Assembly (NCBI GenBank): GCA_005893275.1
Contig: VBOW01000022.1
Location: 1-54,680, forward strand
DNA length: 54,680 nucleotides
DNA from: Candidatus Eisenbacteria bacterium
GTDB lineage: Bacteria; Eisenbacteria; RBG-16-71-46; SZUA-252
Direction of reading: 5' to 3'
In this document: piece after piece, positions 738 through 31,076 of the stretch
Numbering within the stretch: position 1 is the first letter of the stretch
Layout of the letters: every line of letters starts with the position of its first letter
Program-made: the position numbers and the translations under genes
Notes under the pieces: model-generated
Database searches by the model: none
Told to the model about the DNA's origin: nothing
What the model saw: only the letters and a program-made list of their open reading frames with translations

Positions 738-1145
738 ATGACGACTCAGAACACAATCACTCTGACCCGAGCTCCGGTCGTCCAAAACGCAGATGCTGAT
801 ACAAGACCTGTCGCGGAAGTGTTTCGGGCATTTGTCGACCCTGCTGTAACGACTAGGTTCTGGTTCACAAAGAGCAGTGGACGGCTGGAAGCAGGCAAGC
901 AGGTGACGTGGGACTGGGAAATGTATGGCGTTTCCGCCAAGGTCACCGTGAAGGAGATCCAAACGGACCGACGAATACTCGCCGAGTAGGGTTCCGAGTG
1001 CGGTGCCCCGACTCAGGTAGCGAATGCGATCGATTCCATAGGAGGGTTTGCCATGGTGCTGTGCGCGCTGAAAGCGTTACTCGAACACAACGTTGTCTTG
1101 AATGTCGTGGCGGATAAGGCGCCCGACGCCCACGTAAAGCGCTAA
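738..1145 (+). pseudogene. Decayed SRPBCC-domain gene with in-frame stop and internal deletion
   Basis: A ribosome site AGGAGAAGGG precedes the ATG at 738. Eighty-three residues of an SRPBCC protein follow (core AEVFRAFVDPAVTTRFWFT) up to a TAG at 987-989. The same frame continues past this stop into a recognisable SRPBCC C-terminus (GGFAMVLCALKALLEH, then NVVADKAPDAHVKR) and ends at TAA 1143-1145. About 40 residues that normally join the two halves are missing. A nonsense codon plus an internal deletion in one frame indicates a pseudogene rather than a short functional protein. It diverges from the arsR operon and probably arose by duplication of an SRPBCC gene. Confidence 0.75.
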
Positions 1146-1621
1146 TTCCGGGAACGGGTGGACCACGGGATGAGCCCCCATGTCCGGGCTCGGTACCTCG
1201 CGTACTCGGGATAACGCGCGAGCAGGAGCTCCTCCTCGAGCCGCACCTTGATCGCGAGAAACGCGATGACCGCGGCTGCGGAGATTCCGACGAACGCTGT
1301 TGGCTTCCGGAGGAATAGGCCAACGACGAGCATGAGGATCCCGGTATAGATGGGATGCCGGAAGCGGCCATAGACGCCCGTCGTCACCAGCTCCCCCTTG
1401 GGGCGGGGCTCCGGCGCGATCTGGATGACGCGGCGGAGGGTGACCACCGCCGACAGCATGAGCAACAACCCAATCACGCACAGCGCGGCGCCAACGGCGC
1501 TGGGTACGCCGCCCCGCATCCACAACGGTGGCTCGCGATCCACGAAATAGACTCCGGCGAAAACGCACAGGAGCACGGTCTGTGCTGCAGCGTAGATTTC
1601 GCTCTTGCGGCGCACGCTCAT
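1142..1621 (-). CDS. Isoprenylcysteine carboxyl methyltransferase (ICMT/PEMT)-family membrane protein
   Basis: The 159-residue protein has about four hydrophobic segments (near 11-27, 41-61, 91-104 and 108-125). It carries the family signature GVYGRFRHPIYTG (82-94), where the Arg-His-Pro contributes to S-adenosylmethionine binding, followed by RLEEELLLARYPEYARY (127-143). Bacterial members methylate small or lipid substrates that are mostly unknown, and prenylcysteine is not implied. The gene is convergent with the SRPBCC pseudogene and overlaps its last four bases. The length is typical for bacterial members. Confidence 0.85.
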   Translation of the reverse strand: MSVRRKSEIYAAAQTVLLCVFAGVYFVDREPPLWMRGGVPSAVGAALCVIGLLLMLSAVVTLRRVIQIAPEPRPKGELVTTGVYGRFRHPIYTGILMLVVGLFLRKPTAFVGISAAAVIAFLAIKVRLEEELLLARYPEYARYRARTWGLIPWSTRSRN

Positions 1622-2826: not shown

Positions 2827-3516
2827 ATGCACCGCGCAAGCCCCGCCCAATCCATCCTGATCGATTTCGGAGGGACCCTGGACGCGGACGGCGAGCCGTG
2901 GAGCCTCCGATTTCACCGGGCCTACACTGATCTTGGTGGGCGACTGGAGTTTTCAAGCTTCGAGCCGGTTTTCCAGAAAGCGGATCGCGCCGTCTTGAAC
3001 TCTCGAGGGATCAGAACCGCGGGCTTTCGGCAGATGGTGCAGAGCCAGGCTGAAGTGCTCCTTCGCCTTCTGGGTGAGGGTCCGGCGCTGGACGCGGGAG
3101 CGATCGCCGAGACCTTCCGATCGAGGGCCGTCGCGACCGTGGAGCGCAATCGGCCCGTCCTGGAACGGCTGCGCGCTCAATACCGCCTTGGGATCGTGTC
3201 GAACTTCACCGGAAACCTGGAGCCGTGCCTTGAGGAGCTTGGAATTCGACATTTGTTCGGTGCCGTCGTCGACTCCGCTGTCCTTGGAGCGGCGAAACCG
3301 GACCCGCGCCCGTTCGTCGAGGCGCTCCAGCTCCTGGAAACCCACCCCGACCAGGCCTGGATGGTGGGGGATAATTTCGAATCCGACATCACACCCGCTC
3401 TGAGCCTGGGCATGCGCGCCTGCTGGCTTAGATCCCGATCTCGCCACGCGCGCGAAGGCCATCCGCCGTGCACCCAGATAGGCTCCTTCTTGGAGCTAGA
3501 GGCTGTGATTGGCTAG
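2827..3516 (+). CDS. HAD-superfamily phosphatase, first gene of the seven-gene operon
   Basis: The 229-residue protein has all four HAD motifs: nucleophile D13 in LIDFGGTLD, S125 in IVSNFTGN, K157 in AAKPDPRPF and the acidic pair D182/D187 in GDNFESD. The helical insert between motifs I and II marks a C1-cap HAD. The second Asp of motif I (general acid/base, usually at +2) is Gly15. A DFGGTL form exists in some HAD subgroups and could mean slower or altered phosphatase chemistry. It overlaps the nucleotidyltransferase gene by eight bases. The likely role is removal of a phosphate from a pathway intermediate. No strong ribosome site precedes the ATG. Confidence 0.85.
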   Translation: MHRASPAQSILIDFGGTLDADGEPWSLRFHRAYTDLGGRLEFSSFEPVFQKADRAVLNSRGIRTAGFRQMVQSQAEVLLRLLGEGPALDAGAIAETFRSRAVATVERNRPVLERLRAQYRLGIVSNFTGNLEPCLEELGIRHLFGAVVDSAVLGAAKPDPRPFVEALQLLETHPDQAWMVGDNFESDITPALSLGMRACWLRSRSRHAREGHPPCTQIGSFLELEAVIG

Positions 3517-4237
3517 CTTGCAGGCCCTGATCCTGGCCGGAGGCGAGGGGTCCCGGTTGAGGGCGGATGGAGTGGCGGACCCGAAGCCTTGGGTCCGTAT
3601 CGGCGCACGGCCCTACATCGCCACCCTCATCGAGACCCTCCTCACGGTTGGGTGCGAGTCGGTATCCTGCCTCATACGGGCAGACGAGCCCCGGGTCTTG
3701 GGGGAGCTGCGCGAGGACTTCCCCGCCGATCGGTGCTTCGTGCATGCCTGCCACACGCCATCCTCGCTACACACGCTCGCGATTGGATTGGGGGTGACTC
3801 CCCCGGGGCCCGTGTTCTGCACCATGGTGGACACCGTCATGCGCCCCCCCGACTGGGCGTATGTCCACCGCTCCGTTGAGTCGCTCCTGGGCGAGGGCGC
3901 GGACGCCGTGCTGGCTGTAACCCCTTACGCCGAAGGCGACGGGGCGCTCTACGTGGACCGGGATCCCTCCGGATGGGTGCGGGCCCTCGGAGAGACCCCC
4001 TTCGGAACACCGATCGTCACGGGGGGCGTTTACGGGCTGAGCCCGGGAGTGCGGGCCCTCGCGGCGTGCGCGGTGGCCGAAGGCCGCTCGCGAATGCGCT
4101 CGTTCCTCCGCATGTTGAAGGAGAGAGGGCTCCGTGTTACAACGATCGAGGTCGAGAAAATCGTCGACCTGGATCGCGCTTCGGATCTGATCGCGGCTCG
4201 AGACCTCCTGGCGCAGTGGGAGAATAGACGCTCGTGA
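3509..4237 (+). CDS. Nucleotidyltransferase of the sugar-phosphate NTP-transferase family
   Basis: The 242-residue product opens with the nucleotide-binding signature LILAGGEGSRLRADG and the following PKPWVRIGARP, which is the GxGxxxR...K pattern of nucleotidyl transferases that activate a sugar, cyclitol or other alcohol phosphate. TMVDTVMRP supplies a metal-binding Asp, and IVDLDRASDL near the C-terminus resembles the second metal site. It is about the size of single-domain MobA/IspD/heptose-1-phosphate guanylyltransferase-like enzymes. The start is a TTG at 3509 (AGAGG at 3498-3502), overlapping the HAD gene by eight bases, and the stop overlaps the next start as GTGA. Next to a CDP-alcohol transferase, a cytidylyltransferase role is the natural inference. 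Confidence 0.85.
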   Translation: MASLQALILAGGEGSRLRADGVADPKPWVRIGARPYIATLIETLLTVGCESVSCLIRADEPRVLGELREDFPADRCFVHACHTPSSLHTLAIGLGVTPPGPVFCTMVDTVMRPPDWAYVHRSVESLLGEGADAVLAVTPYAEGDGALYVDRDPSGWVRALGETPFGTPIVTGGVYGLSPGVRALAACAVAEGRSRMRSFLRMLKERGLRVTTIEVEKIVDLDRASDLIAARDLLAQWENRRS

Positions 4238-5097
4238 AGACCCGCCTAGGCCAGGGGATCCTCGTGGCGCTCTACAGGCGACCTTCCTACTCACCGCTAC
4301 AGCACCGGATCAATGATACGGCCGTGCTCGACGAGACTGTGTCGCACCTCGCGGCCAAGGGTTGGGATGTCGTTACGACGAACGAAGCCGAGGTCGAGCA
4401 AGGGCGAATTCCCGGAGGGCGGCTCTACCTCAACATGTGCCAGGGCCCGCTCGCCTCTGAGTACCTCCTGCCCCTCGAAAACGACGGGGCGCTGATCGTA
4501 AACAAAGCGAGCAGCGTGCTGCACTGCCACAGGCATCGCATGGCCCGCCTGCTCCAGGAGAGCCGCGTTGCGTTCCCGGAAACCCTGATCATCCAGTCCT
4601 CGGATCCGGCCCACGAGCGGGATCGGCGGCTTGATTTCTGCGGGCGGCATCCCAGGGTGTGGGTCAAGCGCGGGGACGTGCACGCGGAGCGGCCCGAGGA
4701 TGTGGTCTCCGTGGCATCCGGGAGCGTGAGCGGGATCATGGCTTCCTTCGCCGCGCGGGGCGTTCCATGGGTGGCAATCCAGGAGCATGTGCCGGGCCCC
4801 GTCATCAAGTTTTACGGCATCCGCGACGGCAGCTATTTCCGCTGGTATCCCGCAGAGCGCCGTGCCGGCCCGTTCGAGGGTCTCGTTGGCTCGGGCACGC
4901 TGCGCGGGCTCGCCTTCGAGGCGGCGGCGGTTCTCGGGCTCGACGTCTTCGGGGGGGATGCCGTCCTGCCATCCCCGGACCGTCCCGTATTGATCGATAT
5001 GAATGATTGGCCCAGCTTCGCGGCATTACGATCGGAGGCCGCCCCTGCGATCGCAACCTACGTCGACCATAGAGCAAACCCTGGAGAGTCCGAATGA
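4234..5097 (+). CDS. ATP-grasp enzyme, possible inositol-phosphate-kinase-like or ligase
   Basis: The 287-residue protein begins at a GTG. It has an N-terminal Rossmann-like part (ILVALYRRPSYSPLQ), a central ATP-grasp segment with VWVKRGDVHA (K145), a strand pair QEHVPGPVIKFYG, and a C-terminal metal site VLIDMNDWPSF (D255, N257). These are the places where ATP-grasp folds bind ATP and magnesium. The layout LGLDVFGGDAV followed by IDMNDWPSF resembles RimK-like ligases and inositol 1,3,4-trisphosphate 5/6-kinases, judged from memory. Either phosphorylation of a polyol or ligation of an amino acid is possible. It overlaps both neighbours by four bases. Confidence 0.7.
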   Translation: MKTRLGQGILVALYRRPSYSPLQHRINDTAVLDETVSHLAAKGWDVVTTNEAEVEQGRIPGGRLYLNMCQGPLASEYLLPLENDGALIVNKASSVLHCHRHRMARLLQESRVAFPETLIIQSSDPAHERDRRLDFCGRHPRVWVKRGDVHAERPEDVVSVASGSVSGIMASFAARGVPWVAIQEHVPGPVIKFYGIRDGSYFRWYPAERRAGPFEGLVGSGTLRGLAFEAAAVLGLDVFGGDAVLPSPDRPVLIDMNDWPSFAALRSEAAPAIATYVDHRANPGESE

Positions 5098-6428
5098 GCA
5101 CCACCAAGGCGCCCTCCCTCGCGCTGCCCGGCCCTGCGTCCGAGAAGTGGTTCGACACCGAAGCAGAATATCTCGCGCCGGGGATTCAGAGCGTCGCACT
5201 CTTTGCACGGCTCTGCATCGACCGGGGTGAGGGGGCACTGCTCTACGACGTCGACGGCAATCGCTACATCGACCTGCTGGCCGGCGTCGGCGTGGCCAGC
5301 CTGGGGTATGCGCATCCGCGCTACGTCGAGGCGCTCCGGCGGCAGCTGGCGCGGGTTCATGTGGGAAGCTTCACGACCGAGAACCGGGCCGCCTTGGTGA
5401 AGCTCCTCGCGGAGATCACGCCCGGGGACCTTCGCCGAACGCAGTTCTACAGCGGCGGGGCCGAAGCCGTCGAGGCCGCGATCCGCCTGGCTCAGTCCCA
5501 CACGGGCAAGAGCGAGGTGATCGCCTTCTGGGGAGGATTTCACGGCAAGACGGGCGGGGTCCTGCCGCTTCTCGGAAGCAACTTCAAGCATGCGCTCGGC
5601 CCGCTCATGCCGGGGCGGTACCTAAGCCCCTATGCTTCCTGCGCCCGATGCGCCTTCGACAAGACATTTCCATCGTGCGGCTGGCACTGCGTCGAGTTTC
5701 TCCGGCAGAAGATCGACGTCGAGACGGCACGGAACGTCGCCGCGATCCTCGTCGAGCCCATCCAGGGCACGTCGGGCAATATCATTCCGCCTCGCGGATA
5801 CTTGAAGGAGCTGGAGGGGCTCGCGCGGGAGCTGGGAGCGCTTCTGATCTGCGACGAGATGATCACCGGATTCGGCCGCACGGGGATGATGTTCGGCGTC
5901 GACCACGACGGGATCGTTCCCGACGTCATGACGGTGGGGAAGGGCTTCGGTGGCGGGTTCCCCATGAGCGCCATCATCGCGCGTGAATCGGTCGCCTTCG
6001 CCAAGCCTTTCGCCAACCCGAGCGGGAGCTCGTCCAGCTACGGGGGAAACCCTCTCGCGGCGGCCGCGGCCCGCGTCACGGTCGAGACGATCCTCGCCGA
6101 GCGCCTCGTGGACAACGCGCGGAGGGTCGGAGACGTCATGCTGACCGAGATGAAGAGTTGGGAGCGGGAGATTCCGATCGTCAGCGACGTCCGGGGGCGC
6201 GGGCTTCTCCTCGGGATGGATCTCGTCGTGCCCGGAACCCGTCAATGGCTGGACAAGAAGACGACGCGCTGGATCTTCGACACCCTTCTCACCCGAGGGG
6301 TGCTCGCGATGATCTACAACCCGGAGGTTCGCATCAATCCTCCCTTGGTGATCAACGAGGAGTTGGCCATGGAGGCGCTGGCAGCGATGAAGGGAGTCCT
6401 GCGTGAAGCCTCCGATCGACTTGGCTGA
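5094..6428 (+). CDS. Class III PLP-dependent aminotransferase
   Basis: The 444-residue, full-length fold-type I enzyme carries DGNRYIDLLAGVGVASLGYAHP near the N-terminus, the cofactor phosphate site FYSGGAEAVEAAIRLA, LLICDEMITGFGRTG with the pyridine-binding Asp, and the Schiff-base lysine K283 in TVGKGFGGGFPMSA. A cysteine cluster, C183-x2-C186-x8-C195-x3-C199, lies in an insert seen in some relatives and could bind a metal. The enzyme would convert an aldehyde or ketone to an amine, and the oxidoreductase two genes downstream is the obvious source of the carbonyl. Its ATG overlaps the ATP-grasp stop as ATGA. Confidence 0.92.
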   Translation: MSTTKAPSLALPGPASEKWFDTEAEYLAPGIQSVALFARLCIDRGEGALLYDVDGNRYIDLLAGVGVASLGYAHPRYVEALRRQLARVHVGSFTTENRAALVKLLAEITPGDLRRTQFYSGGAEAVEAAIRLAQSHTGKSEVIAFWGGFHGKTGGVLPLLGSNFKHALGPLMPGRYLSPYASCARCAFDKTFPSCGWHCVEFLRQKIDVETARNVAAILVEPIQGTSGNIIPPRGYLKELEGLARELGALLICDEMITGFGRTGMMFGVDHDGIVPDVMTVGKGFGGGFPMSAIIARESVAFAKPFANPSGSSSSYGGNPLAAAAARVTVETILAERLVDNARRVGDVMLTEMKSWEREIPIVSDVRGRGLLLGMDLVVPGTRQWLDKKTTRWIFDTLLTRGVLAMIYNPEVRINPPLVINEELAMEALAAMKGVLREASDRLG

Positions 6429-7302
6429 TAAGGGCGCGGAAGTCGAGGAATGGCTCGACCTCCGCTTCTTCCGGCCGCTCGGCTACTGGATTGCCAAGGC
6501 GCTTCAACCGACGCGCGTCTCCGCCAACCAGGTCACCTTGTGGTCTCTGGCGACGGGACTGGTCGCCGGGCACCTCTTCTACTACGCGGGCCCCTGGCCC
6601 GGCGCCCTTGGCTTCGTACTCTTCATCATCTCCGACATCTTTGACAGCGCCGATGGACAGCTGGCGCGGCTGCGCAGCGTCGAATCCCGGTTCGGGCGCA
6701 TCGTGGACGGTCTCGCAGACAACCTCCGCTTCGCGAATCTATACCTGACCCTGATGGCCCGCCTCGCGGTGCAGGGCAGGAACTGGTTCGACCTTCTCCT
6801 TGTCCTCGCCGCCGGCCTGAGCCAGTCCCTTCAGGGCACGTCGGTCGACTTCATCCGGTTGTCCTTTCTCTCCCTTGGGCCCGGCCATCGGGAGCCCGTC
6901 GAGCTCCCCGAGGAGGTTGCCGTTCCGCGCCAAGGATCGCTCTTCCAGAAACTCGCCGCGTTCGCCTACCGGGCGTACGTGCGGAGGCAGTCTTGGATGT
7001 TTCCCCGAAGCATGGAGTTGGAGCGACGCCTGCGGCAGGGTCTCCTCCCCGAGCAGGAGATTCGTTCCTGCCGGCTCCGCCAGCGGGCCGTGGTGAACCT
7101 CTGCGCCTGGCAGGGCCATAACATCCGATTTGGCCTGCTTGGGGCGGCGGCGGTATTGGGCTGGATCGAGGGGTACCTCTGGGTGACGGTGACGGTGATG
7201 AACATCCTTCTTCTGGTGAGTGTGGCCCTCTATGAGGGGAACGCGCGGAACCTGCTCGAGGCCGTCCGTTCCGATGCCCTTGTCACCGTCGCCGAATCCT
7301 GA
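6403..7302 (+). CDS. CDP-alcohol phosphatidyltransferase family membrane enzyme
   Basis: The complete CDP-alcohol phosphotransferase signature D-x2-DG-x2-AR-x8-G-x3-D-x3-D is present at D81, D84-G85, A88-R89, G98, D102 and D106, all in the expected spacing. The four Asp bind two metal ions and the CDP group. Several hydrophobic stretches (about 45-80, 115-130, 235-280) fit a polytopic inner-membrane enzyme. It transfers an alcohol phosphate from a CDP-linked donor to an alcohol with release of CMP. At 299 residues it is longer than PgsA or PssA because of a soluble insert (about 150-235). The GTG start lies 26 bases inside the aminotransferase gene, and there is no earlier in-frame start. Confidence 0.92.
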   Translation: MKPPIDLADKGAEVEEWLDLRFFRPLGYWIAKALQPTRVSANQVTLWSLATGLVAGHLFYYAGPWPGALGFVLFIISDIFDSADGQLARLRSVESRFGRIVDGLADNLRFANLYLTLMARLAVQGRNWFDLLLVLAAGLSQSLQGTSVDFIRLSFLSLGPGHREPVELPEEVAVPRQGSLFQKLAAFAYRAYVRRQSWMFPRSMELERRLRQGLLPEQEIRSCRLRQRAVVNLCAWQGHNIRFGLLGAAAVLGWIEGYLWVTVTVMNILLLVSVALYEGNARNLLEAVRSDALVTVAES

Positions 7303-8317
7303 CCGGCCTCCGCTGCGAGGCGTGATCGTCGGCGGAGGCGCTGTCGCGACGAGGGGCCACATCCCGGCCTACTTCAGCGCGCACCTCGCGAGACGATTTC
7401 AGATCCTCGGCGTGGTCGATCCCGCGCCCGGCGTTGCGCCGGGTCACGGGATTCCCGTTCTCGATCGTCTGGATCGGATCCGGGACCTCGGTCCCGTCGA
7501 CTTTCTGGACGTTTGCACACCGACAGCGTTGCACCTCAGGCTTACCCTATGGGGTCTCGAGCACGGATTCCACGTGCTGTGCGAGAAACCGGTGGCGCTG
7601 AACCGGAACGAAGCGGAGCAGATCGCGGTCGCGGCCAAGCGCGCCGGGAGGGTGGTCCTGCCCTGCCACCAGTACCGATACAACCCCGCTTGGCTCAAGA
7701 TACGCGAATGGCTGAAGGCCGGTCGCATCGGACGCTGGCACCTGGGTGAGTTCATCGTTCGCCGGACCGCCGCCGACGCAGGGGCCGGGGGAGCCGCCGA
7801 CACGCCGTGGCGCGGCCGACGCGAGAAGAGCCGGGGAGGGATCCTCCTGGATCACGGAACGCACCTGATCTACCTGGTGCTCGACCTGGCAGGGCTTCCT
7901 CAGGAGACCCGCTGCTGGACCGGCCGCCTCCGCCGCGAGCCGTACGAGGTAGAGGATACGGCCCATGTTCTTCTTCGGTACCCCGACCGGGCCGTGACCT
8001 TTTTCCTGACCTGGGCGGACCAGACCCGCGCGACGAGCATTCGCTTCACGGGGGAGCGGGGTCTTATCGAATGGACGGAAGGGGTGCTTTGCCTGGACTG
8101 CGACACGGCGCACGAGCGCCTCGATTTGGCCAGGGAGCTTGCGAAGTCCGCCTATCCGAGTTGGTTCGCCCGTCTCTTCAGGAGATTCGCCGCGGCCATC
8201 GAGCGTCACGAATTGACGGTCGGCCTGCGCGAGATCCACGAGGTGGGAGCGGTCCTTGAGGAGTCGTACGCCTCCGCGGCGCGGGAGTCGGATGTCCTCG
8301 CCCAGGCGGCGCCGTGA
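7274..8317 (+). CDS. Gfo/Idh/MocA-family NAD(P)-dependent oxidoreductase
   Basis: The 347-residue product has an N-terminal dinucleotide fold (GVIVGGGAVATRGHIP), the family EKP motif CEKPVALNRNE with K105, and the catalytic-type D193-HGT-H197 in ILLDHGTHL. Members oxidise or reduce hydroxyl groups of sugars, inositols and related cyclic polyols. The ATG at 7274 overlaps the upstream gene by 29 bases, and a GTG at 7322 is possible but would cut into the Rossmann strand. Together with the class III aminotransferase it could perform oxidation then transamination, putting an amino group on a polyol. The stop overlaps the next start as GTGA. Confidence 0.9.
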   Translation: MPLSPSPNPDRPPLRGVIVGGGAVATRGHIPAYFSAHLARRFQILGVVDPAPGVAPGHGIPVLDRLDRIRDLGPVDFLDVCTPTALHLRLTLWGLEHGFHVLCEKPVALNRNEAEQIAVAAKRAGRVVLPCHQYRYNPAWLKIREWLKAGRIGRWHLGEFIVRRTAADAGAGGAADTPWRGRREKSRGGILLDHGTHLIYLVLDLAGLPQETRCWTGRLRREPYEVEDTAHVLLRYPDRAVTFFLTWADQTRATSIRFTGERGLIEWTEGVLCLDCDTAHERLDLARELAKSAYPSWFARLFRRFAAAIERHELTVGLREIHEVGAVLEESYASAARESDVLAQAAP

Positions 8318-9330
8318 GCCATCGAAGCAGGTTCCTCCTGTTCGCGCTCGGGCTGGCGGTCTTTTGCTATCTCCTCTCGCAGCTGCCCCTGCGGGATCTC
8401 GTAGAGAATGCGCGTCGCACGGGATGGCTCATCATTCCGATCCTGCTCGTGTACGGGGCCGTGTACGCGTGCTACAACGCCTCGTGGCGCGTGGTCATGT
8501 CCGACGAACGGACCCCCATCCCCTTCTGGCGCTCCTACGCGATCACGCTCTCCGGCTTTGCCATCAATTACGTCACACCGGTGGTGAATCTCGGGGGCGA
8601 GCCCTACCGCATCGCAGCCGCCACGCCGTGGCTGGGCCGTCGCCGCGCGACGGGGTCGATCATCCTCTGCACCATGCTGCACGGTTTGAGCCATCTGCTC
8701 ATATGGCTGACGGCGATCGCGCTGGCGATCGCGTTCCACCCTCACGGCGAGATCCAGGTAGCGGGCTTGTCTGTCTTGGGGCTCATCCTCGTGGGACTCG
8801 CGGCCCTCTTGCTCACGCGGCACGATCAGGGGTTCCTCGAGGCGCTCCTCGACCTCTTGTTGCGGCTCCCGTGGCTCCGGCGATTTGTCCAGAACCTGGA
8901 GGCTCGGCGTCCAGCTCTCGCTGAGGTCGATCGGCAGATCATCGCGTTCTACCGCGGGCACCGGCGTCGCTTCTTTCTCGCGCTGGGTCTCGAGTACCTG
9001 GGCCGCTGCATTGCCATGCTCGAGTACGTCCTGATCATCTGGAGCGTGGGCATACACGTCACCGTCGGGGACGCCTTCATCATCGGGGCATTCTCGTCCC
9101 TGGTGCTGAATCTGCTCTTCTTCATGCCGATGGAGCTGGGGTCGCGCGAAGGAGGCCATTACCTTGCGTTCGCCCTGGTGGGACTCGGTCCGGAGCTGGG
9201 AATCTACGCCGCCCTCATCACTCGTCTGCGCGAGATCGTGTGGATCGGGACCGGGATTCTCCTCATCTGGTTCGCAGGGCGGTCGACCCCGCGGACCGCG
9301 TGGCTCAAGGAGGAAGTCGGCAACCCGTAG
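8314..9330 (+). CDS. Flippase-like membrane protein (UPF0104 / LPG-synthase transmembrane family)
   Basis: The 338-residue polytopic protein has about eight hydrophobic segments. The conserved feature NYVTPVVNLGGEPYRI (about residues 90-105) matches the P-x-x-x-x-GEP/E-x-R pattern of UPF0104/YbhN/AglD2-type proteins and of the membrane domain of lysylphosphatidylglycerol synthase. Members are thought to move or modify lipid-linked molecules across the inner membrane. As the last gene of the operon, starting at a GTG overlapping the oxidoreductase stop, it is a natural candidate for flipping the lipid product made by the CDP-alcohol transferase. This role is inferred from context. Confidence 0.82.
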   Translation: MSHRSRFLLFALGLAVFCYLLSQLPLRDLVENARRTGWLIIPILLVYGAVYACYNASWRVVMSDERTPIPFWRSYAITLSGFAINYVTPVVNLGGEPYRIAAATPWLGRRRATGSIILCTMLHGLSHLLIWLTAIALAIAFHPHGEIQVAGLSVLGLILVGLAALLLTRHDQGFLEALLDLLLRLPWLRRFVQNLEARRPALAEVDRQIIAFYRGHRRRFFLALGLEYLGRCIAMLEYVLIIWSVGIHVTVGDAFIIGAFSSLVLNLLFFMPMELGSREGGHYLAFALVGLGPELGIYAALITRLREIVWIGTGILLIWFAGRSTPRTAWLKEEVGNP

Positions 9331-9512: not shown

Positions 9513-12410
9513 CTATCTGAGAAGCACGAACCTCCGCGTGAAGGTTCGGCCCTCCGCGGTGAACCGCACGAAGTAGACGCCGGATCCTGCGGCCGCATCT
9601 CCGCCGTGAACGTGCCACTTCACCGTGTGGTATCCGGCCCCGAGGACGCCGCTGAGGGGGTGTCCCACGCGGCGGCCCGCGACGTCGTAAATGGATAACT
9701 CGGCCCGCGTCGAGGCCGGTAGCCCCAAACGGAACCCCACGACGTCCGCGACAGGATTGCCGCCCTCGACCGCGAACGACAGGTCCCGAAGCGCCGCATT
9801 GTCGACTGCGGAAGCGCCGTCGTCATTGAGAATTGTTCCCAGCCCCTGACCGTCGGCGATCCCGGCATTCACGGGGTTCGACAGATTGACCAGGATCGTC
9901 TCCTGTCCCTCCGGTGTCAGGTCTCCGTTCACTCTGACCGTAAGGATCCCCGAGGTCGCTCCCGGCGCGAACGACACAGCGCTCGAATCCGCGACGTAGT
10001 CGCCGTCCGCGACCGTCGCCGTCCCGTCCGCTGTCTTCCAGGTTGCCTGTACGGTCGCCGTGCACGGTCCGGACAGTCTGACTGGGAAATCGAAGCCCGT
10101 CGTGCCAACGTTTCCCTCAATCGCGATCACGTCCCCGATCGAGACGCTCAGGCTGGGTGCGAAGCCCGCGCTGATCGTGTGGTTTGCCGTCACGTTGGTA
10201 AAGGTGTAGGTCGACACGGCACCCACCGAGACACCATCGACGAGCACATCCGCGATGTGGTAACAGGCGTCCGCAGCGATCGTGAGCGTCTCGTCCGCAC
10301 CGGAGTTCACGGCCACAGCGCCGCTCGGGCTGATCGAGCCATTAGCGCCCGCCGTGGCAGTGATCGTGTACGTGTCGTCGTTGACGATTGTGCCCGTCGA
10401 GGTGCTGGGCGATCCGATCACGGCGTTGGTCGCGGAAGTCAGCGTGAGGGTGAATGTCTCGTTGGCCTCGACATTCGTATCGCCCACCACGTTCACCGTG
10501 ACGGTGCCGCTCGTGGCGCCGGCGGGGATTGTGATCGAGCCTGCCGATGCTTGATAGTCGTTGCCGGCGACGGTCGCCGTGCCGTCGGAGGTCTGGCAGT
10601 TCACGGTTACCGGCAGGCTGTAGCCGGTCGACAGGTTGACGGCGAAGGTGAAGGGAGTGAGCCCGCTATTGCCTTCGCTCTGGCTCGGCCCCGTCGCGAT
10701 CGTCACCGTGGGCACCGGTCCGGCGACATTCGCCCAATAGGTGCTCCATCGGCTCCCGTTGGCGCCCGTCCCGCCGTCGTTGGTGCTGACGCGTGTCTCG
10801 CCGTACTCCTGCACGGTCCAGAGAGACCGGTCGTCCGAAGGATCCACCTGCGCTTGGCTGAAGTCGCCCCAGCGGTTCCGACCGGATCCGAAGTCCTTGT
10901 GATAGTAGTCCGCACCCACTTTATAGATCACTGGGTCGCGGACGGTTCCGGCAACATCTCCGGCAAGGTGCACGGAATAGCCCGAAGACGGATGCTGGGC
11001 GGACGAGAACTGCGAATAGCCAACCATGAAGTCGCCCACTGAGTTCACAGCGATGTGCGGGTAGGCGTACCACTTCCCGCCGTTGCTTGAGTTGGCCGTC
11101 GCGTCCTCGATGCGCCCACCATCGGCGAAACTCCCGCTCGGGGTGTCGAGTTTGGTCCACTGCACGCCAGTGTGCGCGAGGCCCGACGAAGGGAGACCGA
11201 TCGTCTGCGTGTAATGGATGAACCCGCCGCGGTAGACCGGAGCCGAGCGGATCTGTGCATCCTGGGTTTCGATGACGCACGGCGTGGCGCCGCAGCTGCT
11301 CGCCCCGGAATTGGGGGCCGATTGCGGAAGAAGTTGGCCGCCCGGCTGTACCCAGCCCCCGCCCGGCCGCGTCTGACTTCCCCCGGCGGTATAGACGGGC
11401 GCCGACGGTGTGCCGGTGATCATGTCGAGCGTGTAGGTCGCGCCGGCGCTGCTCAGATGGGTCGCGACATAGAGCGTGTCCGAAGTAGGCGAATAGGTCG
11501 CACAGGGTGCGCTGCAGAAGTGCGTGTTAACTGCGTGCGTGAAGATCGTTCCGGTGCCAGTGCCGGTTCGCGCCAGCGGGTAGTTTAGGACCAGGTTGAT
11601 GCCACGTTGGAACAGCCCCGCGGTGCTGTACCGGTTGATGGAAACCGAGATCCAGTTCTTGTTGAAGCCCACGATTGGGAAATCGAGCGTGAAGCCGATA
11701 GCAAACCGATAAAGAAACCAGTTTCCGCTCGGATCGCTCGTTTGCGACACACCAACCAGGATATCCCCCGCGCCGGGGATTACCGATTGCATGACCGCGA
11801 TCCAGCGGTTGTTGTAAGGGTCGTAGAGCGTGCGTGGATCGGTCAGTCCGTTGAGGGCGGTTTCACCAGACGGTGCCCAGAAGGTTGCGGTTCCCACCGT
11901 GCTGATCACCGAGCCGTCGGATTTATTGAAGATCCGGTAGTTATTGTTCAGTCCCGACATGATCTTCGTGGGCCCCACCGCTCCGCCGACGTCCGGTGGA
12001 ATGACAATGTAGCTCGAATCCACCATGGGGATGTCGTCGAGACCCATGAAGCTCGAACTGGGAGATGGAGACGCCGCAAACGCGGAGTACGGCGCCTGAA
12101 TACTCCCGGGCGAAAGGGATGAGAGCGGCTCCGCGGGCTCCTCGACCTCTGGGAGAATCAGTGCCCTGACCGGCGGCATTGGGCGACCGGAGAGCGCCTC
12201 CTGCTTGGCCAGATTCTCGAAATTCACGACCGCGTTGCCCGCAGCATCAATGTGCCTTGTGTTCCGGACCTGGCCCGGGATCGGTTCCGCCACGCGAACA
12301 TGAGCGTGGTCCGACTGCGCGATCGATGCGGGGGGATTCAGGAGAGAAACGGCGGTGATCGAGAGGGTTGCCGCGAGAAATTGGTGGGAAGATCGGACGA
12401 TCCAGAGCAA
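9513..12410 (-). CDS. Large secreted Calx-beta surface protein with C-terminal sorting domain
   Basis: The frame is open up to 12515, but the consensus promoter at 12504-12532 places transcription start near 12498. A TTG at 12410 with AGAGG five bases upstream then gives a 965-residue protein with a signal peptide (hydrophobic core FLAATLSITAVSLL). Residues about 40-560 are a beta-rich module of unknown type. They are followed by a Calx-beta domain (565-676), a short Gly/Ser-rich bacterial repeat (678-750), a second Calx-beta domain (752-863) and a FlgD-like Ig/sorting domain ending SGVYFVRFTAEGRTF (880-965). Calx-beta domains bind calcium in adhesins. It is probably exported and surface attached. 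Confidence 0.85.
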   Translation of the reverse strand: MLWIVRSSHQFLAATLSITAVSLLNPPASIAQSDHAHVRVAEPIPGQVRNTRHIDAAGNAVVNFENLAKQEALSGRPMPPVRALILPEVEEPAEPLSSLSPGSIQAPYSAFAASPSPSSSFMGLDDIPMVDSSYIVIPPDVGGAVGPTKIMSGLNNNYRIFNKSDGSVISTVGTATFWAPSGETALNGLTDPRTLYDPYNNRWIAVMQSVIPGAGDILVGVSQTSDPSGNWFLYRFAIGFTLDFPIVGFNKNWISVSINRYSTAGLFQRGINLVLNYPLARTGTGTGTIFTHAVNTHFCSAPCATYSPTSDTLYVATHLSSAGATYTLDMITGTPSAPVYTAGGSQTRPGGGWVQPGGQLLPQSAPNSGASSCGATPCVIETQDAQIRSAPVYRGGFIHYTQTIGLPSSGLAHTGVQWTKLDTPSGSFADGGRIEDATANSSNGGKWYAYPHIAVNSVGDFMVGYSQFSSAQHPSSGYSVHLAGDVAGTVRDPVIYKVGADYYHKDFGSGRNRWGDFSQAQVDPSDDRSLWTVQEYGETRVSTNDGGTGANGSRWSTYWANVAGPVPTVTIATGPSQSEGNSGLTPFTFAVNLSTGYSLPVTVNCQTSDGTATVAGNDYQASAGSITIPAGATSGTVTVNVVGDTNVEANETFTLTLTSATNAVIGSPSTSTGTIVNDDTYTITATAGANGSISPSGAVAVNSGADETLTIAADACYHIADVLVDGVSVGAVSTYTFTNVTANHTISAGFAPSLSVSIGDVIAIEGNVGTTGFDFPVRLSGPCTATVQATWKTADGTATVADGDYVADSSAVSFAPGATSGILTVRVNGDLTPEGQETILVNLSNPVNAGIADGQGLGTILNDDGASAVDNAALRDLSFAVEGGNPVADVVGFRLGLPASTRAELSIYDVAGRRVGHPLSGVLGAGYHTVKWHVHGGDAAAGSGVYFVRFTAEGRTFTRRFVLLR

Positions 12411-12813
12411 GTGAACCTCTGACGGCTGAGCCAGAGAAGGCACTCCTCGAGACAGACGGGTGCGCTTCGTCGCATGGATTGCAAAAACTCCAAACTTCAT
12501 TTCATTATACGCCATAACATCAACGGTGTCAAAGGATTCGAGGGATGGGGAGGTTCCCCTAATTTCTCGGGGACGGTTCCTGTCGCGGCGGACTCATGGC
12601 TCCGCGCTCGCAGGAACCTTGAATCAACGGCCTACCGCCGTGCCTCCTGTATTAGCGAGTCAGGAATCCCCGCGTCGGCAACACTTACACTGCTGCCCAG
12701 GAGGAAACATGCGCGTTCTACTTCCTGGAGCCCCGGTGTGGAAACGCGCCCGGGCCCTGACATTTCGAACGCCCTTTTGTCGAGCGCTCCTTTACCCGGC
12801 GCGCGGCGTACGG
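12411..12813. other. Intergenic region upstream of the Calx-beta gene
   Basis: It holds the leader and consensus promoter of the minus-strand Calx-beta gene. A small stem-loop at 12555-12573 (TCCCC / GGGGA around nine bases) is followed by GGTTCC and resembles REP-like elements. A strong ribosome site, AGGAGGAAAC, stands before the plus-strand ATG at 12710, but the frame after it has no protein-like character. I see no other gene. Confidence 0.4.
12504..12532 (-). promoter_or_regulatory. Perfect-consensus sigma70 promoter of the Calx-beta protein gene
   Basis: On the minus strand TTGACA (12527-12532) and TATAAT (12504-12509) are both exact consensus and separated by 17 bases. Transcription should begin near 12498, leaving a leader of about 88 bases before the TTG start at 12410. 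It excludes the ATG at 12515, which lies inside the promoter spacer. Confidence 0.85.
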
Positions 12814-29927: not shown

Positions 29928-31076
29928 TCAAGAAACCGGAATTCCAGTGGACGCGACCGGGGCCCGCCTCTCCGCGGAATCCTCGGCCTCGACGCGCCGC
30001 TGTGCCGGCACGACCGGAACGGGTCGCCAGCCGACGGCATCGAAGAACCCCAGGCGGCGTTCGGAAGGGCGATCGAGCTTTGCGAATATCAACCGCGGTT
30101 GGAGAGCCGGGGCGAGCGGGAGGACGAAGCGCGTTCCAATCCGAGTCTTGACGCAAGATGCAACGGCGATCGGCTCGCCGGTGGATGCGTCCCGCACGGG
30201 CAGCGGCCGGGTGGCTGCGGTTACGTTTACAATCAGCCGTTGGGGAGATCCCCGCCCGGTCTCCATCGCTACCAGGAGGTTCAACGCCCCGAGCCCCACG
30301 CGTCGGATGCTGCCTAGGGTCAGATGAAGCTCCCCCTGTTCCAAGCGGCACATGCTTACAGGGTGGCGGCCGTCCAGCGCGCCGAACCTCGCTGCGGGAA
30401 GAAAGCCTTCCTCCGGGTTTGCGAAGCGAAGGAGAGCCGGTCCCCGTAGAGGGAGCTGGGAGCGGTGCATCAAGATGGCACGACGTTTCCGATCCCTCTC
30501 GAATTCGCTCAGTGGAAGTGCCACGTCCTTCGGGTCCCGGGCAAGGTGAAGAGGGGCGTGCACGATATAGCGGAGGGGGGTGGGCCCTTGGCCCTCCAAC
30601 GATGTCCGGGCCAGGGCGAATTCCGAGAGCACTGCGAGCGCGCCATGGTCGGGATGCCGGTCGACAGGATCCGGATAGACCAGGATGGAGGGCCGCCACT
30701 CGGCTATTTCCGCGGTCAGGTCTTTCAATAGGCCCTCTGGACCCTTCATCAAGAGATCGCACAATTGCTGATCGGGGTAGCCGAGAAATCTCACTGAGTG
30801 GAGCGGAACCCCAAGGCAGGAAAGCGCGGAGAGCGCTTCCTCCCGCCGCCTTTTTCCCCAACGCACCCGGTCCGCGGGAGAGATTCGCCAGCGCCTCTCC
30901 ACCGCCCGCTGGGCCCAGGGATTGTTCTCGCCGTCCGTCATGAACAGCACACGCGTCCGGGCACCGACCGTACAGGCTCGCTGCAGGATGCCGCCTGTCG
31001 CCAGCGACTCATCGTCTGGGTGCGGAGCCAGCAGCATCACGCGGTCCGTCGGACGAATCTCCAGCAGGCCGCTCAC
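29928..31076 (-). CDS. PIG-L/LmbE-family deacetylase
   Basis: The 382-residue protein starts at a GTG. The zinc-binding signature LLAPHPDDESLATGG lies at about 15-29 and the second part YPDPVDRHPDHGAL at about 133-146, which is the full His-Pro-Asp-Asp ... His-x-x-His pattern. These enzymes deacetylate N-acetylglucosamine-type groups on glycolipids or secondary metabolites. A C-terminal extension of about 170 residues, beta-rich and unassigned, is longer than in single-domain relatives. Its start overlaps the stop of the upstream glycosyltransferase as GTGA, so the two are coupled and may work on the same glycan. It converges with the ArnT-like gene with three bases between. Confidence 0.9.
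   Translation of the reverse strand: MSGLLEIRPTDRVMLLAPHPDDESLATGGILQRACTVGARTRVLFMTDGENNPWAQRAVERRWRISPADRVRWGKRRREEALSALSCLGVPLHSVRFLGYPDQQLCDLLMKGPEGLLKDLTAEIAEWRPSILVYPDPVDRHPDHGALAVLSEFALARTSLEGQGPTPLRYIVHAPLHLARDPKDVALPLSEFERDRKRRAILMHRSQLPLRGPALLRFANPEEGFLPAARFGALDGRHPVSMCRLEQGELHLTLGSIRRVGLGALNLLVAMETGRGSPQRLIVNVTAATRPLPVRDASTGEPIAVASCVKTRIGTRFVLPLAPALQPRLIFAKLDRPSERRLGFFDAVGWRPVPVVPAQRRVEAEDSAERRAPVASTGIPVS

Follow-up and report, generated by a model that had tools for sequence, protein, structure and literature searches.

The stretch of DNA analysed here (the window) spans 54,680 nucleotides, positions 1 to 54,680 of contig VBOW01000022.1 from a Candidatus Eisenbacteria bacterium (assembly GCA_005893275.1), and carries near its start an operon of seven intact, in-frame open reading frames (ORFs) on the plus strand (2827–9330). 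In order, these encode a HAD-family hydrolase, a nucleotidyltransferase, an ATP-grasp enzyme, a class III aminotransferase, a CDP-alcohol phosphotransferase, a Gfo/Idh/MocA dehydrogenase, and a UPF0104 membrane protein (Table 1). Successive genes overlap by 8, 4, 4, 26, 29, and 4 nt when the Gfo gene is read from ATG 7274, and these coordinates bear out the first-pass annotation, which had described a seven-gene, one-strand operon with an overlap of 4–29 bases at every junction. The longest Gfo ORF, starting from GTG 7220, overlaps the CDP-alcohol phosphotransferase gene by 83 nt. We read all seven ORFs as real genes because their GC content by codon position (0.73–0.85 at the third, 0.44–0.53 at the second) fits coding DNA. 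Six of the seven assignments have Pfam support, while the ATP-grasp protein had no significant Pfam match.

Table 1. Genes of the operon and of other parts of the window, with the support for each name.
Feature	Length (aa)	Position	Strand	Support
HAD-family hydrolase	229	2827..3516	+	Pfam HAD (Hydrolase), 8e-17
Nucleotidyltransferase	242	3509..4237	+	Pfam NTP_transf_3
ATP-grasp enzyme	287	4234..5097	+	Predicted fold
Class III pyridoxal phosphate (PLP) aminotransferase	444	5094..6428	+	Pfam Aminotran_3, 1e-91
CDP-alcohol phosphotransferase, 'type I'	299	6403..7302	+	Pfam CDP-OH_P_transf (PF01066), 45.8 bits (cut-off 22)
Gfo/Idh/MocA dehydrogenase		7274 (or GTG 7220)..8317	+	Pfam GFO_IDH_MocA
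UPF0104/LPG_synthase_TM membrane protein	338	8314..9330	+	Pfam LPG_synthase_TM, 7e-25
Phospholipid methyltransferase/ICMT-like small membrane protein		1142..1621	-	
Large secreted-type protein with Calx-beta domains		9513..12515	-	
PIG-L family protein (GlcNAc-PI de-N-acetylase-like)		29928..31076	-	

A two-sequence profile of the ATP-grasp protein, scanned against 84,980 species genomes (GTDB), recovered 38 loci, in most of which the genes of the operon stand together. The operon is thus a conserved unit and more than a chance association, so the grouping proposed at first pass survives the neighbourhood check. Gene order in the Gemmatimonadota loci was identical to that in the window, and the same families occurred in rearranged order in Rokubacteria, Binatota, Hydrogenedentota, Thermodesulfobacteriota, and Elusimicrobiota. 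Wherever a locus could be evaluated, the aminotransferase and dehydrogenase co-occurred, the one exception being L042/L130 (a single genome). The cluster forms of Bacteroidota, Ignavibacterium, and Oligoflexia lack the two genes altogether; the UPF0104 gene was not present in all clusters. Beyond the seven families, no neighbours were found to recur across phyla, and some were common to loci of Rokubacteria. By eye alone, the aminating cluster apparently lies near hopanoid-type genes (HpnK-, HpnJ-, and HpnN/MMPL-like) in loci L034, L043, and L031. A nitrilase-superfamily gene, also identified by eye, precedes the cluster in Eisenbacterium L025 (L008 14618–15673, minus strand) and is not recurrent elsewhere.

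A protein search of plasmid records yielded matches in Bacteroidales, where annotated gene orders, which include the inositol-phosphate synthase gene MIPS, were MIPS-nucleotidyltransferase-(hypothetical, the ATP-grasp gene)-CDP-alcohol phosphotransferase-UPF0104-HAD in Bacteroides finegoldii and nucleotidyltransferase-ATP-grasp-CDP-alcohol phosphotransferase-HAD-MIPS in Prevotella nigrescens. Records NZ_OY725779, NZ_OY725915, and OY725995 are labelled as Bacteroidales plasmids, are typed as non-mobilizable, and have chromosome-like genes; they are possibly chromosomal fragments. Heaver et al. (2022) described an alternative inositol lipid cluster in B. vulgatus and Prevotella, comprising a nucleotidyltransferase (BVU_RS13095 in B. 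vulgatus), a phosphotransferase (BVU_RS13105), and a HAD protein (BVU_RS13115) near MIPS (PMC9246714). The proposed route leads through CDP-inositol to phosphatidylinositol (PI)-dihydroceramide, which B. vulgatus makes without the BT enzymes, and its authors call the pathway unconfirmed; even for B. vulgatus it lacks genetic confirmation (PMC9246714). ATP-grasp is not mentioned in that paper's main text, as judged by a term search (PMC9246714), and the one-gene gap in the BVU locus tags between nucleotidyltransferase and phosphotransferase would hold the ATP-grasp gene.

The window operon shares with the B. vulgatus-type cluster a homologous nucleotidyltransferase, CDP-alcohol phosphotransferase (bearing DX2DGX2AR..GX3DX3D), and HAD protein standing together, as well as the ATP-grasp protein and, in some Bacteroidales, the UPF0104 gene. 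It differs in adding the class III aminotransferase and Gfo/Idh dehydrogenase and in having no adjoining MIPS gene, which lies on another contig (G000:C26), whereas MIPS is in the direct vicinity of the cluster in aminating relatives from Elusimicrobiota. Judged by homology, the window operon is therefore a variant form of that putative cluster, in which the shared core is joined by an aminotransferase and a dehydrogenase. The initial view that no described system has this gene set does not hold, as the homologous core had already been published (PMC9246714).

The third protein is an ATP-grasp enzyme by predicted fold: its AlphaFold2 model (mean pLDDT 92.9) matched Ddl, PsnB, ArgX, RimK, and inositol-tetrakisphosphate/trisphosphate kinase (ITPK) in Foldseek. 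When a profile of the catalytic core was compared with the PDB, ITPK4 (5e-5) and ITPK1 (7e-4) led, with the ligase PsnB at 0.2. Residues K192-F193-Y194 and D255-x-N257-x-W-P-S were invariant in 63/63 ATP-grasp sequences, and the former aligned to the KFY of ITPK4; in PsnB, the Lys position is occupied by Arg. The family thus shares with ITPK the ATP-grasp fold and both core features, KFY and DxNxxP[SG], and we propose that the protein is an ITPK-like inositol-phosphate kinase. Together, such a kinase and the HAD phosphatase could allow inositol 3-phosphate to be activated elsewhere on the ring and then to lose the spare phosphate.

The nucleotidyltransferase is a proposed CTP:(amino)inositol-phosphate cytidylyltransferase. 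In a profile comparison with solved structures, its best match was 4jd0, the T. maritima inositol-1-phosphate CTP transferase (3e-12, positions 2–221 of 227), and it also matched 2xme and 4mnd (IPCT) across positions 2–225, the whole domain; Foldseek was non-discriminating for substrate, placing RmlA/GlmU first and 4jd0 at rank 11. The CDP-alcohol phosphotransferase has a complete DX2DGX2AR-X8-GX3DX3D motif, is homologous along its length to the enzymes of the Bacteroidales clusters, and matched the NCBIfam archaetidylinositol-phosphate synthase at 2e-13, below the cut-off. We propose that it moves (amino)inositol-phosphate to a lipid hydroxyl.

In the HAD protein, the nucleophile D13, along with T17, K157, D182, and D187, was invariant in 52/52 sequences, and so was the replacement by Gly of the usual Asp at +2 (motif I is DFGGTLD in the window and DxGGT in the family). 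Known phosphatases such as YihX also lack this second Asp, a precedent compatible with phosphatase activity, and we propose that the protein dephosphorylates an inositol-phosphate or lipid intermediate. As a rule, UPF0104 proteins are associated with lipid-linked molecules, and the terminal protein is a proposed flippase or export factor; the flippase-like role suggested at first pass is supported as a possibility. The protein scored 69 bits against the HpnL family (cut-off 196), and a hopanoid side-chain pathway was rejected given this only distant likeness to HpnL.

Residues K283, D254, R413, and T226 of the aminotransferase were invariant in 53/53 sequences, with T226 standing at the position of the gateway Glu in GABA transaminase. 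In the Gfo protein, E97-K98-P99, D186, and H190 (numbering of the analysed translation) were invariant in 50/50, giving the EKP and D-x3-H signatures, and this Lys-Asp-His arrangement is that of inositol dehydrogenases. Against the inositol 2-dehydrogenase equivalog TIGR04380, the protein scored 52 bits, short of the cut-off of 355. We propose that it acts as an inositol dehydrogenase and the aminotransferase as an inosose (or inosose-phosphate) aminotransferase. A comparable route through MIPS, a Gfo-family inositol dehydrogenase, and an inosamine-forming aminotransferase has been proposed for the hygromycin A aminocyclitol (Hyg18, Hyg25, Hyg17, Hyg8), with Hyg17 shown to oxidise myo-inositol, although there the product is a soluble antibiotic moiety, made without lipid transfer (PMC10949010). 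By analogy, the operon would aminate inositol. A phosphonolipid (PntC-like) pathway was rejected, as the aminotransferase is of a different class and no neighbour beyond the seven families recurred across phyla.

Inositol is the likeliest polyol, since the aminating operon of Elusimicrobiota itself contains MIPS. This gene was contiguous with the cluster and on the same strand in 14 of the 20 Elusimicrobiota regions fetched, typically in the order HAD-nucleotidyltransferase-ATP-grasp-aminotransferase-Gfo-CDP-alcohol phosphotransferase-MIPS, and usually overlapped or abutted the phosphotransferase gene; in Elusimicrobium L040 it likewise fell within the aminating cluster. MIPS adjoined the UPF0104 gene in two Rokubacteria, neighboured several of the Bacteroidota and Ignavibacterium clusters without an aminotransferase/dehydrogenase pair, and was present somewhere in the genome for 26 of 28 cluster-bearing genomes.

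The lipid acceptor of type I transferases (300 residues) may be ceramide, since genes resembling serine palmitoyltransferase (SPT) accompany them. With the gap between 391 and 451 bits as the divide, an SPT-like gene was present above it in 15/15 genomes with a type I transferase and in 1/11 with the longer type II, a contrast that is not phylogenetically independent. In the window genome, genes for a GNAT acyltransferase and an NAD-dependent reductase come directly after an SPT-like gene (G000:C42; L098 4890–8211), an apparent ceramide operon. Such an arrangement resembles bacterial ceramide genes. The closest solved relative of the SPT-like protein is an SPT, and its best family was NF047600 (487 bits, cut-off 640).

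From gene content, conservation, intact active-site residues, and the MIPS genes of Elusimicrobiota, all of which are directly seen, we infer a putative pathway: its reactions, their order, where the ring carries the amine, and which lipid serves as acceptor. Inositol-3-phosphate would be supplied by MIPS, encoded elsewhere in the genome. The Gfo/Idh dehydrogenase would oxidise a ring hydroxyl to a ketone, which the class III aminotransferase would convert to an amine, giving an inosamine or its phosphate. The ITPK-like enzyme would then add phosphate at the position due for activation, the nucleotidyltransferase would form CDP-aminoinositol, and the CDP-alcohol phosphotransferase would pass phospho-aminoinositol to a lipid hydroxyl. 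Finally, the HAD enzyme would remove the spare phosphate, and the UPF0104 protein would assist the lipid in crossing the inner membrane. With moderate confidence, we suggest that the operon makes an amino-inositol phospholipid, and in the Eisenbacteria host perhaps an amino-inositol phosphoceramide. The aminated, NDP-activated, lipid-linked polyol of the first-pass annotation is supported as a reading; the probable identity of the polyol as inositol is new and comes from the Elusimicrobiota operons, and likewise new are the ITPK-like core of the ATP-grasp protein and the possible ceramide acceptor, while the aminated-inositol step stays conjectural.

In the IPCT/DIPPS route to di-myo-inositol phosphate, inositol phosphate is likewise handled by a cytidylyltransferase, matched over its full length by the window nucleotidyltransferase, and a CDP-alcohol phosphotransferase. 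In the window, by contrast, the two genes are separate, the proposed acceptor is a lipid rather than inositol-phosphate, and a kinase, HAD protein, dehydrogenase, and aminotransferase are added. The PI pathway of B. thetaiotaomicron (BT_1522–1526) and mycobacterial PI-phosphate synthase (PIPS) likewise lead to an inositol phospholipid through an enzyme with the same CDP-alcohol phosphotransferase motif, followed by dephosphorylation; unlike the window enzymes, PIPS uses CDP-diacylglycerol and inositol phosphate, without a nucleotidyltransferase or amination.

Several observations weigh against an amino-inositol lipid. The closest solved relatives of the aminotransferase are GABA transaminases, amid amino-acid transaminases and racemases, and those of the Gfo protein are assorted sugar oxidoreductases; both families are broad, and we know of no class III aminotransferase that acts on an inosose. 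For the ATP-grasp protein, Foldseek ranked the ligases Ddl, PsnB, and ArgX above ITPK, and the full-length family profile gave PsnB 4e-5, ITPK4 1e-4, and ITPK1 7e-4. Unlike ITPK, moreover, the window family scores below the Pfam family cut-off: 11 of 35 members matched PF05770 (Ins134_P3_kin), with a best E of 0.011 that did not reach the curated cut-off, and the window protein was not among the matches listed. MIPS lies beside a PIP-synthase-like CDP-alcohol phosphotransferase gene, outside the operon, both in the window genome (G000:C26; L084 6528–8672) and in Gemmatimonadota, and it occurs in 43/47 genomes of the phylum, so that its presence in the window genome says little. SPT-like genes also occur in 21/47 genomes of the phylum, and this, like the phylogenetic non-independence of the transferase contrast above, counts against the ceramide acceptor.

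The ATP-grasp and aminotransferase results would suit an ordinary, non-aminated phosphoinositol lipid whose head group is later decorated, the aminotransferase making an amino acid that an ATP-grasp ligase joins to inositol: the top-ranked ligases include the ester-forming PsnB, which also leads the full-length profile, and the aminotransferase is closest to enzymes of amino acids. We regard this as unlikely, given that the ATP-grasp gene is present without the aminotransferase in Bacteroidota, L026, and L036, that its catalytic core prefers ITPK and has an invariant Lys where PsnB has Arg, and that the dehydrogenase would be left without a role. The separate location of MIPS in the window genome and Gemmatimonadota, along with the non-specific Gfo and aminotransferase families, could instead reflect another aminopolyol head group (e.g., an amino-sugar alcohol or aminotetritol), with the Elusimicrobiota MIPS serving a neighbouring inositol pathway. 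The contiguity of MIPS with most of the Elusimicrobiota clusters, its place beside several Bacteroidota and Ignavibacterium loci, and the pointing of both nucleotidyltransferase and ATP-grasp core to inositol phosphates make this rather improbable. A product other than a membrane lipid, whether a soluble phosphodiester (e.g., the compatible solute di-myo-inositol phosphate in an amino form) or a surface polysaccharide decoration, would accord with the IPCT-like nucleotidyltransferase and with the longer type II transferases, which by eye seem to bear an extra N-terminal nucleotidyltransferase-like domain, as do AF2299 and IPCT-DIPPS fusions; these last are some of the transferase's nearest relatives of solved structure. 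We see only a slim chance of this, considering the general tie of UPF0104 proteins to lipid-linked molecules and the co-occurrence of type I transferases with SPT-like genes. B. vulgatus, which has a homologous core, also makes PI-dihydroceramide (PMC9246714).

Within the phylum, the ATP-grasp gene was found in 2 of 47 Candidatus Eisenbacteria genomes (the window genome and L025), and it was absent from the genomes searched of the same genus (three) and the same family (five). In Elusimicrobiota, it was found in 34 of 248 genomes. The window ATP-grasp and aminotransferase sequences grouped with those of Gemmatimonadota (100/100 support), apart from Eisenbacterium L025. Along the contig, homology with other genomes of the genus starts at about position 9,520, just beyond the operon. 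The operon was thus, on the simplest interpretation, acquired laterally from Gemmatimonadota or a lineage near them. A contaminating contig was rejected, as stretches of DNA downstream of the operon are 66–78% identical to same-genus genomes.

The G000:C26 pair of MIPS and PIP-synthase-like genes is apparently an ordinary PI route apart from the operon; ordinary PI synthesis was rejected as the operon's own role, given this separate pair. Elsewhere in the window (Table 1), a methyltransferase-like gene lies upstream of the operon and a PIG-L family gene about 20 kb from it. The first part of the large secreted-type protein is 73–74% identical in same-genus genomes, and its repeat-bearing region varies between relatives.

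No inosamine phospholipid turned up in the literature searched, though this is only a weak sign that none has been described. Whether the operons represent a widespread, undescribed class of inosamine-headed membrane lipids, made by a kinase-first CDP route with an ITPK-like kinase and an inosose-acting class III aminotransferase and ceramide-based in some phyla, we judge to be evenly balanced. If the proposed activities are correct, the ITPK-like kinase would be a candidate for the missing enzyme in the route to inositol lipids proposed, but unconfirmed, for Bacteroides and Prevotella of the gut. An amine-bearing relative of PI would then exist in six or more phyla, including Gemmatimonadota, Eisenbacteria, Rokubacteria, Elusimicrobiota, Binatota, and Hydrogenedentota, most of which are known mainly from metagenomes, and the operon would provide a marker set for unidentified aminophospholipids in environmental lipidomes.

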